Shown piece after piece: positions 13,920 to 41,809 of a DNA stretch of 64,000 nucleotides. A model generated the notes under the pieces. That model was not told the origin of the DNA. It ran no database searches and saw only the letters and a program-made list of their open reading frames with translations. The translations under genes and the position numbers were made by a program. Numbering within the stretch: the stretch's first letter is position 1; every line of letters starts with the position of its first letter. The DNA comes from Cyanobacteria bacterium FACHB-63. Lineage in GTDB: Bacteria; Cyanobacteriota; Cyanobacteriia; Leptolyngbyales; Leptolyngbyaceae. The stretch lies in the NCBI GenBank assembly GCA_014695255.1, contig JACJNX010000028.1, positions 124,001 through 188,000 of the forward strand, read 5' to 3'.

Positions 13920-14850
13920 TTTGCTTCTCCAGAGTCACGCAACGATCGTGAACGATCGACACGCAGCCTTTGGGAACTTTTCTTAGAGGCTTTCGTCTAA
14001 TCACCAACTTCTGTCCAACTATTTCTAGCTGGCAGTTCAAAAAACAATCTCTCTAATCGCTTCGCACCCTAAGATTAATGGGAATTCTAGCGATTTCTCT
14101 AAAAAACTTCTGCTAATGTCGATCCAATAAGCTACAATTTTGGGCTTTGACTGGTCACAAGTGGACTAAAATTCTTCGTTGAAGTTCAGCAAGTTTGCAA
14201 ATTAACAAAAACTGGTCGAACCGATAAGAGGTAAGGCTGAGGGGAGATTAGATTGCATTATCAATTTGAGCGGCTGTCGATCGTAAATCTGTCAAAGTTG
14301 CGAATAATCTAAATATTTCTTCAAATATTGCCAAATTCCTGAATACCGCACAATACAGCAATTGCAAATTTACTTCCTAACCCACAAATTAGAATTTCAA
14401 GTTTAGAATCGAGAGGTACAATTTGTAGAAGTTAAGCAACGTGATGGAATTGCTGTTTTAAGAGAAGCGCACAATCTGCTGGGTGCTATTTACACACTGT
14501 GGTCAAGATGACGAAGATTGCCCTAGTTCTTAAGCACTGATTTCCTGAAATTGTTTAACTCAAAGCGATGCCGATTCGCTCAGTCTGCGATCGAGTTGTG
14601 AAGCGCATTCATGCTGACAACTCAAATATCAATTCAAATATTAGTTGTCATTTGAGTTGTAGAGTTGTTCAGTTTGTTTATGGTGAGTTACAATTCGAGC
14701 CAGTTTAATATTTCACGCTGAAGGATTAACCCTTTAGAGGGACGGCAACCTCCGATATGTGATTGTTAATCTAGGAAGCAAAGCTGAGTTATCGATCCTC
14801 GTATCGCTTTACTCAAGCAAGTGATTTGTCGCATACCTGGAATCAGACAG
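13920..14850. other. Long gene-free region upstream of the PadR regulator
   Basis: This stretch of about 930 bp is AT-rich and has no gene I can support. Near its right end, 14593-14668, it holds a cluster of GAGTTGT motifs and an 11-bp inverted repeat, listed separately. At 14735-14755 a short GAGG-CCTC hairpin lies in a purine-rich leader. An unannotated small RNA is possible but nothing I see proves it. Confidence 0.4.
14593..14668. promoter_or_regulatory. GAGTTGT motif cluster with 11-bp inverted repeat, putative operator
   Basis: Three direct GAGTTGT copies (14593-14599, 14654-14660, 14662-14668) and one inverted copy (ACAACTC, 14617-14623) fall within 76 bp. The segment ACAACTCAAAT at 14617-14627 pairs perfectly with ATTTGAGTTGT at 14650-14660, leaving a 22-bp spacer. 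This lies about 180-260 bp upstream of the PadR-family gene, a class of repressor that commonly binds inverted repeats and controls itself. Its role as an operator is inferred. Confidence 0.4.
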
Positions 14851-21702: not shown

Positions 21703-21888
21703 AGGACGGGAATTGGCTTCGGTATATGTCCCGTATTTTCTCAGAAGATGGGGGAAAGATTGTGTAGACAAGTTCGATCGCGCAGAATGTTTCTGCCTTT
21801 AGCGTATCTTTTGCAATTGTGCTGGATACCAACGATCGTGCTTTGATCTCGATGGTTGAGGCTTGAGAGGGGAGACTTCGAGAACAGA

Positions 21889-22084
21889 AGTTCAAATTTC
21901 AGGGTTTGAGGTTGAGGATCGCGCTTCTGAACGTGAGGTTTCAGGCTTTGAGGTTGAAGCTTTGGGTTCTGAAGTCCGAGTTTCGCCTTTCAAGCTCTGA
22001 TGTTGAGATATTGATGTCGAAGTTTCGAGCTTTCAGGATGAAGTGTCAGGCTTTGAAGCTCATGTTTCGAGGTTTCAGGTCAAG
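21889..22084 (+). repeat. Heptad array 1: degenerate 7-bp repeat, about 28 units
   Basis: From 21889 to 22084 the sequence can be cut into consecutive 7-bp words that stay in register, such as GTTTCAG, GCTTTGA, GGTTGAA, GTTTCGA and GGTTTCA. The consensus is about GNTTYRA. No two neighbouring units are identical, so the array is old or actively degenerate. Because 7 is not a multiple of 3, the repeat gives a spurious open frame (21906-22133) with leucine/phenylalanine-rich periodic translation, which I do not regard as a gene. The array occupies the gap between the rhodanese gene and the broken PIN toxin. Confidence 0.8.
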
Positions 22085-22155
22085 TTGCCTCACGTTTGGG
22101 TATGCCGCAGAGATAATGGTCATGCTCGGCTGACCAATCGGCGGGGGCTTCAATG

Positions 22156-26222: not shown

Positions 26223-26410
26223 GAAAGCTTTACAGAGGTTTCAGATGGAACGAGATTAGCGCCAATCTACTGTTTAAGGTTCAGTATTTTAACGTGCCGT
26301 TCCATGTTACATACTTCACATCCAAATCGTTCAGAGATTTCTAAGAAATGCTATCCCCAGTCCTAGCTGAATGCACTTTTAAGTTAGAAACGTTACCCTC
26401 TTATCCTCAC

Positions 26411-26564
26411 CTTCCAACCTTGAATCTCATTACTTCAACGTTGGATCTCGAAACTTCGACTTCCGAACTCCAGAATTTAAGCTCAGATCTCGAAACACCG
26501 AGCAAATGACTCGATCGTTCAAGTTCCAAGCTCGAATCGTCGTCTTCAAAGGTCGATCGCTCAA
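26411..26564 (-). repeat. Heptad array 2: degenerate 7-bp repeat, 22 units
   Basis: Reading the plus strand from 26411, 22 consecutive 7-bp words stay in register, among them CTTCCAA, TCTCGAA, ACTTCGA, CGTTCAA, GCTCGAA and CGCTCAA. The consensus NYTYRAA is the complement of the array 1 motif, so this array has the opposite orientation. It lies in the 467-bp gap between the start of the broken methyltransferase and the small gene at 26690. The right part is a homologous copy of array 3. Confidence 0.8.
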
Positions 26565-26608
26565 CCTTTTTACTGCATCGTTGCGCCTTCCGGCTTAACT
26601 GTTCCCTC
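26479..26608 (-). repeat. Relic copy of the 3' end of the gene at 27729-28254 plus its array
   Basis: 26479-26608 aligns without gaps to 27638-27767 with 13 differences that I count by eye, about 90% identity. The copy includes the last dozen codons and the TAA stop of the unknown gene at 27729-28254 (reading EGTVKPEGATMQ here against EGTAKPEGATVQ there), followed by the first 90 bp of the heptad array. Identity continues more weakly to about 26446. The rest of the gene is absent, so this is a truncated duplicate. Confidence 0.8.
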
Positions 26609-26689
26609 ATGACGCAGCTATCATTAAGCTTGAGAAGTTTAATTCTTCAAGCAACAGAGTGCCTTTCAATGTGAAACGATGAGAAATTC

Positions 26690-26902
26690 ATGATACAAAC
26701 AGCCGAGCAGATTGATCATTTGGATGCGGAGACTGCCCGTAATTTTCTAGAGAAGTTGCCGCAACATATTCGAGAGGCGTTTTATGCACGAGCGGCAGCG
26801 ATCGAGTATCCCGTCGAGGCGGTACTAGAGTCAGCGATCGCGGCTTCTCTTGATCCTGATGCCCTCAGCTTTGCCGACTGCAAGCCCGAAGTGCTGGATT
26901 GA
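26690..26902 (+). CDS. Small protein of unknown function before an Uma2 gene
   Basis: This 70-residue, acidic, helical protein contains AETARNFLEKLPQHIREAFYARAAAIEYPVEAVLE and ends ALSFADCKPEVLD. I do not recognise a family. The size, acidity and position 44 bp before an Uma2 nuclease gene would suit an antitoxin-like partner, but no DNA-binding motif is clear. The ATG follows a weak purine stretch, GATGAGAAATTC. The codon use looks ordinary for the window, which supports a real gene, and the two genes are probably cotranscribed. Confidence 0.5.
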   Translation: MIQTAEQIDHLDAETARNFLEKLPQHIREAFYARAAAIEYPVEAVLESAIAASLDPDALSFADCKPEVLD

Positions 26903-26946
26903 TCTCATCGATTTTCTCAAGATAGGAAACAGGAGGAAGTGTTGCA

Positions 26947-27537
26947 ATGTCGATCGCTACCAAACAGAAACTCACCTTTGATCAGTTTCTTGAGCAATAT
27001 TCCGACGATGGACAATACGAACTGGTTGATGGAGTGGTAGTTGAAATGAGAGCGACACGACAACATGATGATGCCAATTTTTTCATCCTGTTTGCTTTCA
27101 ACGATGAGATTAGACGACTGAAGCTTGATTATGTTGTCAATAATACAACCGTGATTCAAACGGCTGAGAATCGAGGACGTAAGCCTGATGTCAGTGTGGT
27201 CAACAAGACAATGTGGCATTCTGAACGAAATGCTTATGGTGCTTTAGATAAACCGATTCAATTAGCCGTAGAAATTGTTTCAACCAATTGGGAAGACGAT
27301 TACATCGACAAACTCGATGAATATCAACAGATGGGAATTTCTGAGTATTGGATCGTCGATTATCTAGCGATCGGCAGCAGAACTTACTTAGGCAACCCCA
27401 AAACGCCGACTGTACTTGTTTATCTATTAGACGAGTCAGGCGTTTATCAATCCACCGCATTTAAGGGGGACGATCGCATCCTCTCTCGTACCTTTCCTGA
27501 ATTGACCCTAACTCTCAATCAAATTCTAAATGCCTGA
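26947..27537 (+). CDS. Uma2-family endonuclease-fold protein (DUF820)
   Basis: The 196-residue protein has the PD-(D/E)XK-derived Uma2 fold common in cyanobacteria. TFDQFLEQYSDDGQYELVDG gives the early Glu, RGRKPDVSVV the Asp, and LAVEIVSTNWEDDYIDKLDEY the E-x-V element followed by the Lys helix, then GISEYWIVDY. The usual active-site residues are therefore present. The biological role of Uma2 proteins is not settled; they multiply in cyanobacteria and are often near mobile or toxin genes, as here. This is one of three copies in the window (also 30920 and 41852). Confidence 0.85.
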   Translation: MSIATKQKLTFDQFLEQYSDDGQYELVDGVVVEMRATRQHDDANFFILFAFNDEIRRLKLDYVVNNTTVIQTAENRGRKPDVSVVNKTMWHSERNAYGALDKPIQLAVEIVSTNWEDDYIDKLDEYQQMGISEYWIVDYLAIGSRTYLGNPKTPTVLVYLLDESGVYQSTAFKGDDRILSRTFPELTLTLNQILNA

Positions 27538-27563: not shown

Positions 27564-27728
27564 CTTGATCTTTCAACCTTTTCACTCCAAACTCCGACCT
27601 CTACACTCGAAACTTTGACCTTGCTACACCAAATACAAAGCTCAGATCTCGGAACATCAAGCAAATAACTCGATCGTTCAAGTTCTGAGCTTGAATCATC
27701 GTCTTCAAAGGTCGATCGCTCAACCTTT
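27564..27728 (-). repeat. Heptad array 3: degenerate 7-bp repeat behind the unknown gene
   Basis: From 27564 the plus strand reads in 7-bp register through CTTGATC, TTTCAAC, CTCCAAA, CTCCGAC, CTCGAAA, CTTTGAC and so on up to the stop codon of the minus-strand gene at 27729. There are about 23 units with consensus CTYRAAN. It has the same orientation as array 2 and opposite to array 1. It fills the whole space between the Uma2 gene and the unknown gene. Confidence 0.8.
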
Positions 27729-28254
27729 TTACTGCACCGTTGCGCCTTCTGGCTTCGCCGTTCCCTCTTGGCTCTTCGCCTTCCGAGGTTTCCGCGCAAA
27801 CCGTTGCCCCATCTCACTCACGACTACATCCAAACCGCTCCCCTGTCCGCTCACCTTCGCGTAGTTATACACCTGCAACGCCGCCGCATACGCCTCACTC
27901 CCCGCCGCCATACAGGTATCATCGACTAGGGACTGCAACTGCGTCAGCGCCACCACGATCGGGTACATCGCTTCAAACAATTGCATATCTTTCCGCATTT
28001 CTTCGAGGTCAAACGATCGGGGCAAGAAGTCCTCATTCTGAGATGCCACTTCCAACGCTTTCGCCACAAACGCCCGACTCTTATCGCCCATCTTAGGTAA
28101 AGCTTTGCGCTCATCCGCCGTTAGGTAAAGCTTTGCGCTCATCCGCCGTTAAATCGATCAAGAACGGCAGCTTCGCCTTAATCGTGGCGATCGCGTCCAG
28201 CACTTCTTCTCGGTCTTTTGAGTCGAGCGTTGCACTAATCTGAGACATTGCCAT
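27729..28254 (-). pseudogene. Unknown gene broken by a 28-bp tandem duplication
   Basis: From the ATG at 28254 the frame reads MAMSQISATLDSKDREEVLD and continues to LTADERKALPNGG, where a TGA stops it. Removing one copy of the 28-bp direct duplication at 28093-28148 joins LTADERKALP to KMGDKSRAFVAKALEVASQN and gives a 165-residue protein that ends KPEGATVQ. The product is helical, with LFEAMYPIVVALTQLQSLVDDTCMAAG in the middle and a basic ARKPRKAK stretch near the end. I do not recognise the family. An internal GTG or ATG might still yield the C-terminal 137 residues. A truncated duplicate of its 3' end lies at 26479-26608. Confidence 0.75.
28093..28148. repeat. Perfect 28-bp tandem duplication
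   Basis: Positions 28093-28120 and 28121-28148 are identical, and TTA follows as the start of a third copy. The unit encodes part of the LTADERKALP segment of the minus-strand gene, and its length of 28 shifts the frame. Perfect identity of the two copies implies a recent replication-slippage event. Confidence 0.95.
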
Positions 28255-28354
28255 AGTAGAGTACCCCTAAGAGGTTTACCCGCCTAGAGTACCCAGTGCC
28301 ACGATCGCCCCAACTCCAGCCACACCTTCAGGAGAGATTAATCTGCGAGCGACC

Positions 28355-29791
28355 TTAATCCCCGCCACCATCTCCGGTCGCTGCCTTCTGCGCTGCAAAC
28401 CGCTCCTTAAATTTGCGCTGCTGAACGTTGTGATCAATGATCGGTCTAGGATATCCGGCACGATCGCGCTCCTCCGGCGAAATCTTGCCCGAAATCAAAT
28501 CCTCAGTGTCAACGCTCCGCAACTCTGGCAACCATTCGCGAATATATTCCGCCTCCGCATCAAACTTCTTCGCTTGACTGGCAGGATTAAAGATTCTCAA
28601 CGGCTTTGGATCCATGCCGCTCGATGTACTCCACTGCCAGCCGCCATTATTAGAAGACAGATCGCCATCATACAATCGCTGCATGAAATACTTCTCACCC
28701 AAGCGATAGTCCACGAACAAATCTTTTGTCAGAAAGCTTGCCACGATCATCCGACAGCGATTGTGCATCCAAGCGGTTTCATTCATCTGCCGTATCGCCG
28801 CATCAATGATCGGATATCCCGTCCGCCCTTCGCACCAAGCCTGGAAATACTTTTCGTTATTGTCCCAGGGAAACGTCTTCAGCACCGGACGATAAGCACC
28901 CTCGGCTAACTCAGGAAAATGATACATCGCGTGTTGATAAAACTCGCGCCAAGCAATCTCCTGCCGCCAAACTCGAATATCATCGGTTTCGCCCTTGTGA
29001 TCTGCCGCTTCGACGGTCGCCGCCCAAACCGATCGCACTCCAATCACCCCGAACTTCAGCGCCGCACTTAAAAGCGAAGTTCCAGGTTGAGCGGGGAAAT
29101 TTCGCTGTTCCTGATATTGATAAATCGCCGAGGCGCAGAACTCTTCTAAGCGTTCCTTTGCTGCCGCCTCACCGGGATCAAGCATCAAGGGATTGTCCCA
29201 GACATAGCCTAAGTCTTTCGCTGTCGGTAGCAGGATGACGCCTTCTGCTTGATTTCGTTCGACATCGCTCAATCCTTCTGCCCCTGCCAAATCCGCAACC
29301 GGAGAAGATTTCGATCGACTATTCCAATTCTTCCAAAACGGTGAATACACCGTATAAGGCGAACCTGTGCCTGATTTAATCTCTTCGGGCGAATGCAGCA
29401 GTTGATCCCAAAATCGTTGTACTTCGATGCCGCTTTCATTCAGCGCATTAACAACCGCTTGATCGCGATCGCGTCCATACGGTTCCACATCCTGATTCAA
29501 AAACACGGCTTTCGCATTCAGCGATCGTGCCAGCTTCGGGATTCCCTCTTTCGGATCAGCTTGAATAATCAGTAACTCACTCCCCGCCGCCGTATACCGC
29601 TCCTGCAAAGATTCCAGGCTGCCGATCAGATACTTCACCCGCGCAGGCGCAACATCATCGCGATCAAGAATCAACGGATCAAGGCAAAACACGCCCACGA
29701 CTTTTGGCGATCGCTCTCTTGCCTTAGATAGCCCCAGATTATCTGAAGCCCGAAGATCCCGACGATGCCAAAACAAAATCAAATCAGACAT
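28355..29791 (-). CDS. phr: Class I deoxyribodipyrimidine photolyase
   Basis: This 478-residue flavoprotein uses blue light to split cyclobutane pyrimidine dimers. The N-terminal antenna domain starts LILFWHRRDLRASDNLGL. The FAD domain holds TGYPIIDAAIRQMNETAWMHNR, RMIVASFLTKDLFVDYRLGE and GDLSSNNGGWQWSTSSGMD, the standard photolyase signatures with the Trp electron-transfer chain. Length and motifs fit CPD photolyases with a deazaflavin-type antenna, as in Synechococcus, rather than cryptochromes. The ATG lies 3 bp after the nudix stop, and folK-nudix-phr form one operon on the minus strand. Confidence 0.95.
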   Translation of the reverse strand: MSDLILFWHRRDLRASDNLGLSKARERSPKVVGVFCLDPLILDRDDVAPARVKYLIGSLESLQERYTAAGSELLIIQADPKEGIPKLARSLNAKAVFLNQDVEPYGRDRDQAVVNALNESGIEVQRFWDQLLHSPEEIKSGTGSPYTVYSPFWKNWNSRSKSSPVADLAGAEGLSDVERNQAEGVILLPTAKDLGYVWDNPLMLDPGEAAAKERLEEFCASAIYQYQEQRNFPAQPGTSLLSAALKFGVIGVRSVWAATVEAADHKGETDDIRVWRQEIAWREFYQHAMYHFPELAEGAYRPVLKTFPWDNNEKYFQAWCEGRTGYPIIDAAIRQMNETAWMHNRCRMIVASFLTKDLFVDYRLGEKYFMQRLYDGDLSSNNGGWQWSTSSGMDPKPLRIFNPASQAKKFDAEAEYIREWLPELRSVDTEDLISGKISPEERDRAGYPRPIIDHNVQQRKFKERFAAQKAATGDGGGD

Positions 29792-40099: not shown

Positions 40100-41809
40100 A
40101 TGAGCTATCGCATGAATCGCCGCGCCTATGCCGAAACGTTTGGTCCGACTGTCGGCGATCGCGTCCGTCTTGCGGATACTGAACTGATCATCGAAGTCGA
40201 ACAAGACCTAACTACTTATGGGGATGAAGTGAAATTCGGCGGCGGGAAAGTGATTCGCGATGGCATGGGACAATCCCCGATTACGAATGAGGATGGCGCA
40301 GTTGATGCTGTGATTACCAATGTGCTGATTCTGGATTGGTGGGGCATTGTGAAAGCGGATGTCGGGATTAAAGATGGAAAGATTCATGCGATCGGTAAAG
40401 CTGGAAATCCCTATATTCAAGACAATGTCACGATTATCATTGGTCCTGGAACGGAGGCGATCGCCGGAGAAGGGATGATTCTCACGGCAGGTGGGATTGA
40501 TACCCACATTCACTTTATTTGTCCGCAACAGATCGAAGTTGCGATCGCATCGGGTGTTACAACCATGATCGGGGGTGGAACGGGTCCTGCTGCGGGAACA
40601 AACGCCACCACTTGCACTCCGGGACCTTGGTACATTCATCGAATGCTGCAAGCGGCTGAAGCTTTCCCGATGAATTTAGGATTTCTGGGCAAAGGAAATG
40701 CTAGTCAGCCAGATGCACTCGAAGAACAAATCAAAGCGGGTGCAATGGGATTAAAGCTACACGAAGACTGGGGAACAACCCCTGCTGCGATCGATACCTG
40801 TTTAAGTGTGGCCGATGACTATGATGTGCAAGTTGCCATTCACACCGATACCTTGAATGAAGCAGGCTTTGTCGAAGATACGATCGCAGCTTTCAAAAAC
40901 CGTGTGATTCACACCTATCACACCGAAGGCGCAGGCGGCGGACACGCACCAGACATCATTAAAGTTTGTGGTGAGGCAAACGTATTGCCATCTTCGACCA
41001 ATCCGACTCGACCTTACACACAAAACACTTTAGATGAACACTTAGATATGTTGATGGTGTGTCACCATCTTGATCCGAGCATTCCTGAAGATGTTGCCTT
41101 TGCAGAATCGCGAATTCGACGAGAAACGATCGCAGCCGAAGACATTCTGCATGATATTGGTGCGTTTAGTATGTTGTCTTCTGACTCACAAGCAATGGGA
41201 CGCATCGGAGAAGTGATCATTCGCACTTGGCAAACCGGACACAAAATGAAAGTACAACGGGGAGCATTAGCGGAAGATAGCGATCGTAATGATAACTTTC
41301 GAGCCAAACGCTATGTTGCCAAGTACACAATCAATCCTGCAATCACACACGGCATTGCAGATCATGTTGGATCAGTTGAAGTGGGTAAGTTAGCGGATCT
41401 CTGTTTGTGGCGACCTGCAATGTTTGGAGTCAAGCCAGAAATGGTGATCAAAGGTGGCATGATTGCTTGGTCACAGATGGGCGATGCGAATGCGAGTATT
41501 CCAACTCCTCAACCTGTGCATATGCGCCCGATGTTTGGTAGCTTTGGTCAAGCGATCGCGCCCATCTCCCTTACGTTTGTTTCTCAGGCTTCGTTGAAGA
41601 AAGGTAGCTTAGATTCGCTGCATTTGAAGCGTCGATTAGTTCCCGTTTCTGGAATTCGCAGTCTGACCAAACGCGATATGAAACTGAATGATGCACTCCC
41701 TCACATGGAGGTTGATGCAGAGACCTATCAAGTTCGGGCAGATGGTGAGCTCTTAACTTGCGAACCTGCAACAGTTTTACCCATGTCACAACGTTATTTT
41801 TTGTTCTGA
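40100..41809 (+). CDS. ureC: Urease subunit alpha UreC
   Basis: UreC carries the nickel centre that hydrolyses urea to ammonia and carbamate. The 569 residues match the family. [10 protein letters not shown] gives two nickel-binding His (about 134 and 136), [19 protein letters not shown] contains the Lys that is carbamylated (about 217), [10 protein letters not shown] and [15 protein letters not shown] more metal ligands, and [20 protein letters not shown] the active-site His flap. The gene ends with [10 protein letters not shown], the normal C-terminus. UreA, ureB and the accessory genes are not adjacent, as is common in cyanobacteria where urease genes are scattered. I see no clear NtcA site in the 200 bp upstream. 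Confidence 0.97.

Follow-up and report, generated by a model that had tools for sequence, protein, structure and literature searches.

The locus studied here raises a simple question: do a small gene and the repeat array that starts at its stop codon belong together, and if so, what could the array be doing? The locus lies in a 64,000-nt stretch of the genome of Cyanobacteria bacterium FACHB-63 (contig JACJNX010000028.1, positions 124,001 to 188,000), called the window throughout. A previous sequence-only reading of the locus had suggested a linked unit, with the array as a possible 3' UTR or small repeat RNA. Our comparison across genomes points to an unrecognised gene-plus-RNA unit, in which many cyanobacteria carry a small gene followed by a self-pairing 21-nt array.

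The gene runs directly into a 21-nt repeat array

The features of the window that bear on this question are as follows.

28254..27729, minus strand: gene of an undescribed protein family, frameshifted, with a predicted all-helical product
28093-28151, no strand: tandem duplication of 28 bp (2.1 copies, 100%), which causes the frameshift
28294..28285, minus strand: 5' leader motif GGGTACTCTA, its first base 40 nt before the ATG
28266..28257, minus strand: second copy of the leader motif, a motif conserved in the gene family
27564..27728, minus strand: 3' array of 21-nt units, three heptads each, directly after the stop codon
27638..27692, minus strand: predicted RNA hairpin with a 15-bp outer and a 3-bp apical stem, the first part of the putative array RNA
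26407..26611, minus strand: truncated duplicate of the gene end and array, with a match to the hairpin model (R1, see below) at 26572..26463 (86.1 bits)
21866..22104, plus strand: orphan array of 21-nt units, similar in heptad style and lacking an adjoining gene homologue

The frame of the window gene is broken because of the 28-bp duplication: an intact frame of 137 aa (28142..27729, minus strand) represents the C-terminal part, and the first 40-odd codons, counted from the ATG at 28254, sit in a different frame. The strict leader motif is found 38-49 nt before the ATG in 33/71 named homologues, compared with 7/3284 control windows.

As the sequence-only reading had stated, there is no spacer between gene and array; the first base of the array is the base next to the stop codon, and the array extends to about 27564, an end that fits the point (~27560) where homology with the closest relative, G004, stops. 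The same reading had described a heptad array, which is correct for the sub-period but not for the main period. Compared with itself at lags of 21, 7 and 14 nt, the segment 27564-27728 has an identity of 0.507, 0.405 and 0.364; dinucleotide shuffles give 0.26-0.27 and reached these values in 0, 0 and 6 of 1000 cases, respectively. Since lag 21 is the highest and neither lag 20 nor lag 22 rises above chance, the window array is a 21-nt repeat of three unlike heptads, not a plain heptad repeat.

The truncated duplicate does keep the gene-array join, as had been noticed: 26447-26611 aligns to 27606-27770, comprising ~41 bp of the gene 3' end and then the array, whose part in the duplicate (26407-26569) has a lag-21 identity of 0.514. 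Because both copies flank a Uma2 cassette, and the cassette in G004 has direct repeats of other local DNA around it, the truncated copy looks like a local duplication and thus not like independent evidence, leaving little weight to the earlier argument from a join seen in two places. The Uma2 cassette of the window (26690-27537) lies between direct repeats at 26407-26611 and 27564-27770, made of array and gene end, and the one in G004 (contig C39, locus L221) lies between direct repeats of 114 bp of the photolyase 3' end; these repeats suggest a mode of integration that duplicates its own flank.

A 21-nt array follows the gene across cyanobacteria

A homologue scan with one genome per species and one conserved peptide pattern gave 87 confirmed loci, the best 80 of which (L044-L123, cyanobacterial by their record titles) are the named loci used here. 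These include near-identical orthologues, so that counts over them are not independent, and because they came from one peptide pattern, divergent array-less members may be under-sampled among them. We scored a flank as periodic when, in the 500 nt next to the stop codon, some 100-nt stretch had a lag-21 identity of at least 0.45.

Among named loci whose 3' flank is 300 nt or longer, 67/74 have 21-nt periodicity behind the gene. The 6/80 loci with less than 300 nt of flank are excluded from this count; five of them still show lag 21 at 0.56-0.90, and L056 does not. By comparison, the first 500 nt upstream of the gene are periodic in 3/77 loci, bins further downstream in 1-4 of 69-72, and random 500-nt windows of the window genome in 8/780. 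The top lag is 21, 42 or 63 in 71/75 loci whose best lag reaches 0.45. Gene and array are therefore linked computationally, which supports the idea of a linked unit with a 3' UTR or small repeat RNA behind the gene.

Lag, frame, fold, terminator and self-complementarity tests were carried out on 66/75 detected arrays (at least 180 nt long and starting no more than 260 nt after the stop codon). Mean excess identity over these 66 arrays is 0.30 at lags 21 and 42, about 0.07 at lags 7, 14, 28, 35 and 49, at most 0.05 at lags adjoining multiples of 7, and near or under zero at the remaining lags. This profile, together with array lengths of mostly 9-17 units, shows that the length and step of the array are kept while its sequence is free.

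No neighbour gene is conserved across clades in frames of at least 100 aa within 3 kb of the 80 named loci, among the clusters listed; the largest of these clusters consisted of array pseudo-frames, and the others looked like orthologous loci. A reading of the locus through a conserved neighbour was rejected on this ground.

The array has features of a folded RNA

A coding array, in which seven codons would make up the 21-nt step, is ruled out, as no frame is kept open: any open frame is present in 20/66 arrays, against 38% of column-permuted controls. Instead, consensus units are self-complementary beyond their own permuted columns in 60/66 arrays (mean z 3.21), and in the best self-pairing register of the gene-sense strand 56/66 arrays have more G.U and less A.C than expected, an asymmetry that disfavours a DNA palindrome. 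Fold stability against column-permuted controls has a mean z of -2.97 for the sense and -2.34 for the antisense strand, with the sense strand more stable in 52/66 arrays; part of this difference arises because the arrays are G+T-rich (mean 0.549 versus 0.523 in coding sequence), and G+T richness alone favours sense folding.

In the large branch that includes the window, ~110 nt after the stop codon are homologous and contain a hairpin of 18 modelled pairs, in which 93.8% of cells are paired, compared with at most 51.5% in slid controls. Among the 26 of 31 rows that form the covariation set, picked by similarity to L108 and with L046, L048, L071, L134 and L155 left out before counting, 11/18 pairs have at least one row in which both sides are changed; the mean in shuffled alignments is 4.9 such pairs, and 0/500 were as high as 11. 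The window matches the resulting model R1 at 27731..27622 with 93.3 bits, having itself been in the training set, and keeps 16/18 model pairs; the truncated copy keeps 17/18 even with 18 differences over 110 nt. The R1 element is found between -30 and +300 nt relative to the stop codon in 52/80 named loci, and in 35/63 when training loci are left aside, spanning Leptolyngbyaceae, Nostocaceae and other families. Rfam (release 15), searched over 16 sources at the gathering threshold, returned only 5_ureB_sRNA and a tRNA, both elsewhere. The 5_ureB_sRNA match (RF02514) lies at 40251-40541 of the window, minus strand, with 97.1 bits against a gathering score of 40.

Given the self-complementarity with its G.U bias and the hairpin that covaries next to the stop codon, the most likely role of the array is that of an RNA read together with the gene. 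The hairpin covariation and the G.U excess on the gene-sense strand thus speak for the RNA character that had been suspected from the window.

An RNA at this position could also be a structured 3' UTR or a cluster of terminators that stabilises or ends the mRNA without being recognised by the protein, an alternative to which we assign a limited but real probability. Repeated 3' palindromes can stabilise or end mRNA, the array is located at the stop codon, folding is strong on the sense strand, and terminator-like hairpins adjoin the array in some copies. However, the link to one protein family demands more than a stabiliser, the 21/7 period is strict across unrelated unit sequences, arrays of this kind are rare in random windows of the window genome, and there is no terminator signal behind the 66 arrays (2/66 versus 3/66 shuffled). 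Between gene and array, the scan called a terminator-like hairpin in 2/66. By eye, terminator-like hairpins with GGAACGTT-type arms are seen just after the stop codon of L003, L013, L015, L011, L126, L133 and L135, and in L081 and L105 AGGAACGTTCCT occurs within the array units, which look as though they derive from a terminator arm.

Alternatively, the array could work as DNA, providing helically phased sites (21 bp being two turns) for the protein or another factor, for example in partition, silencing or transposition. A strict 21-nt period suits two turns of B-DNA better than A-form RNA, and both the exact 21-bp period with its 7-bp sub-period, maintained while the sequence drifts, and the orphan arrays without a gene would be accounted for. 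A DNA site should be strand-neutral, though, whereas G.U is above and A.C below expectation on the gene-sense strand in the same 56/66 arrays and the hairpin pairs vary via G.U, making this alternative unlikely.

The gene encodes an undescribed, predicted all-helical protein

The protein is about 155-165 aa long in most copies. It had been read as belonging to no familiar family, and indeed the window frame and family members have no profile match above cut-off in Pfam or NCBIfam. For 35 members, Pfam gave stray matches only (best E 0.008) and PADLOC none at E 0.1; likewise, there is no convincing match in PHROGs or PADLOC and no convincing sequence relative in the PDB (best E 0.035), and profile searches matched no enzyme or toxin signature. 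In the structure prediction (pLDDT 84.5) all secondary structure is helical, one helix extending over ~52 residues; the C-terminal tail is of low confidence in the prediction and basic in the sequences. Structural comparison yielded no convincing solved fold: the best E with Foldseek was 3.3, and the best VIA match, with a Z of 6.5, covered 68 residues at 5.6 A rmsd, which is within what common helical arrangements reach. The protein is under purifying selection, with a median dN/dS of 0.106 over 401 overlapping, non-independent pairs.

In a protein tree of 117 rows, 99 rows have an array, 14 do not and 4 are unclear; the 99 include L144, a mis-framed row on a long branch from the same place as L086. 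Array-bearing rows cluster in this tree (11 changes versus 17.0 shuffled). The sequence-only reading had looked to homologues to decide the matter, and these support a linked unit: periodicity stands behind 67/74, although array-less homologues occur, among them the 14/117 tree rows and a homologue in Thiodictyon (see below). Five of the 14 array-less rows fall in one clade of ~190-aa proteins. In the genus of the window, the ~190-aa homologues without arrays are L014, L016, L017, L019, L020 and L023, where the array status of L017 is unclear and L023 is a broken copy. The array-less ~190-aa homologues have possibly been domesticated.

Most same-genome paralogues carry unrelated arrays

Additionally, the window genome contains three more homologues of the gene on other contigs, with 39-55% identity. 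Behind these, lag-21 identity is 0.48 (weak) at L002, 0.83 at L003 and 0.68 at L004, and the array regions of this genome have an 8-mer overlap of 0.003-0.014 with one another. In general, array similarity follows protein similarity (Mantel 0.51, 0/500) and drops to near zero below ~85% protein identity. Same-genome paralogue pairs have an 8-mer overlap of at most 0.014 in 19/23 cases, and the remaining 4/23 share some array 8-mers (0.036-0.065). By these computed measures an array descends with its own protein, and the arrays of most paralogues within a genome are unrelated. Such private arrays would be expected of a self-specific protein-RNA pair; simple fast drift would give the same pattern.

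A candidate self-specific protein-RNA unit

We propose, at about even odds, that leader motif, gene, hairpin and 21-nt array are one discrete unit in which protein-RNA pairing controls the protein. Transcription would run from the gene into the array, the array would fold into a multi-unit duplex RNA, and the protein, with its predicted alpha-helical core and basic disordered tail, would bind its own array at many sites. This pairing would most likely act on the protein in cis: the array would tether, sequester or neutralise it in the manner of an RNA antitoxin, and each copy would thereby respond specifically to the RNA encoded with it. By analogy, this would perhaps be a self-cognate protein-RNA unit with RNA-antitoxin-like logic. 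More speculatively, and with rather low confidence, the unit could represent a new class of self-specific module for addiction or defence in cyanobacteria, in which an all-helical protein is checked by its own self-pairing 21-nt repeat RNA, private to each paralogue, and is released upon loss or titration of that RNA.

Several observations fit the proposed protein-RNA unit poorly, namely the exact 21-nt step, the terminator-like hairpins before the array, the array-less homologues and the orphan arrays. The terminator-like hairpins, which precede the array in one clade, would lower read-through.

Relation to known systems

In type III toxin-antitoxin systems, the repeat array is placed in front of the toxin gene. 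The unit resembles ToxIN, CptIN and TenpIN (PMC8860590, PMC4627078) in combining a small protein gene with a tandem-repeat array, in pairs that are likely self-specific. In contrast to type III, the array here lies behind the gene (67/74 on the 3' side versus 3/77 on the 5' side), the unit is degenerate, 21 nt long and mostly present 9-17 times, and the protein is predicted to be all-helical, without a matching profile. Pfam and PADLOC contain ToxN/CptN/TenpN-type profiles, and no match to these was found in Pfam (35 members and the window frame) or PADLOC (35 members). Where type III systems have a tandem-repeat RNA accompanying the gene, the present locus has a tandem array with RNA-like features, which may be its counterpart. 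As array side, unit and protein all appear to differ, we do not class the gene-array unit as a type III toxin-antitoxin system.

In the AbiF system, the protein is bound and neutralised by a structured RNA, RCd22, which acts both in cis and in trans (PMC12373285). This is similar to our locus in that a protein gene has an associated structured RNA, and different in the protein family and in the RNA, RCd22 having two motifs rather than a long 21-nt array in that account (PMC12373285). AbiF/RCd22 is an example of a protein inhibited by an RNA of its own outside the classical type III scheme (PMC12373285).

A fixed 7-bp word does not underlie the arrays, given an excess of 0.30 at lag 21 versus 0.07 at lag 7 over the 66 arrays. 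Heptamer repeats of cyanobacteria include STRR. Our arrays share with STRR and TAACTGA repeats an intergenic position in cyanobacteria and a 7-nt step; the TAACTGA repeats consist of a fixed heptamer, mixed in Microcystis with other heptamers, and no common function was seen in the adjoining genes (PMC4679880). Unlike fixed-heptamer repeats, the arrays described here have a 21-nt unit of three unlike heptads, stand behind one gene family and differ in sequence between loci. REP/RAYT systems combine a protein gene with palindromic repeats and also have orphan repeats. Both features recur here, but no transposase profile (Y1 or other) was matched in Pfam by the 35 members.

We found no description of the gene-array unit in the open-licence PMC literature; judged by this literature and by the empty searches of profile and RNA libraries, the unit appears to be undescribed relative to those libraries. 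If the proposal is true, a cyanobacterial gene family is one of the two halves of a gene-RNA system, and annotation would overlook this system because the protein is unnamed and the RNA resembles junk repeats. That the 21/7 geometry is fixed while the sequence is free is an uncommon constraint in want of a structural explanation, every paralogue is a natural test of cognate specificity, and the hairpin model combined with the array rule is a direct route to locating copies.

Distribution, insertion site and orphan arrays

The gene family is patchily distributed, being present in 24/42 genomes of the taxonomic family and 22/386 of the phylum; a single genome has as many as 10 profile matches, fragments included. 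Both N-terminal-only and C-terminal-only gene remnants occur, leaving the support for a LINE-like 5' truncation unclear. No relative of the protein was found in phage records or viral contigs, and the sole plasmid match outside cyanobacteria, in Thiodictyon (52% identity), has no array behind it (lag 21 0.32).

In G004, the site between Uma2 and photolyase is without gene and array. Homology to the window breaks off at ~27560, next to the array, and is picked up again at 28355, the end of the photolyase; where the window has gene and array, the G004 site holds a different small repeat-like insert of CCCTCATCCCCAACCCTTCTCCC type. In G001, G002, G003 and G007, the stretches taken beside the photolyase gave a photolyase match only. 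Because the G004 site is free of gene and array, the unit looks as if it was gained as a block of ~0.8 kb.

The orphan array of the window has a lag-21 identity of 0.482, with lags 20 and 22 also raised (0.365 and 0.332), and contains a weak R1 match (21883-21992, 29.6 bits, E 8.5e-4). R1 matches were judged gene-less by comparing their coordinates with those of profile matches, and orphan counts are lower bounds, as at most 93 first-look candidates per genome were scored. The heptad pattern AGNTNNR x4 gave no match in the window genome because the units are too degenerate. Orphans L186 and L201 keep all 18 hairpin pairs, L188, L190, L204 and L206 break 2, 3, 6 and 4 pairs, and further orphan matches break 2 to 8; gene-linked rows break 29/468 hairpin cells. 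Orphans as equally constrained RNAs are not a general rule, as most of those checked lost more stem pairs than gene-linked copies. Those that lost pairs may be relics, and a short piece of the gene 3' end is retained in some orphans (L186, L206 by eye, and the window copy).

These observations raise the possibility that gene and array are a selfish mobile unit, in which the array marks the copying end and orphans are dead or non-autonomous copies. The patchy spread through the phylum, the many and partly fragmentary matches in single genomes, the element-free site in G004, the pieces of gene end on orphans and the lack of a conserved neighbour gene across clades would all agree with such a unit. 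On the other hand, none of the 35 members matched a profile for a transposase, recombinase or reverse transcriptase, the occurrence of both kinds of remnant leaves no clear 5' truncation, selection on the protein is strongly purifying, and no target-site duplication can be read at the G004 site, which holds another insert. We regard a selfish mobile unit as improbable, while noting that it is compatible with the proposed protein-RNA unit. Tandem repeats do occur elsewhere, as in the bin 1000-1500 nt upstream of the gene (12/76 loci, many of them orthologous Nostoc loci), but that common repeats happened to fall behind this gene is contradicted by their frequency there compared with the sequence directly upstream and the downstream bins, and is scarcely credible.

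Another 21-nt array, with lag 21 up to 0.86 and no gene match nearby, is found in L043 (G000:C101:70001-90000) at 14058-14446. By eye, it resembles the GAGT-type array behind L004.
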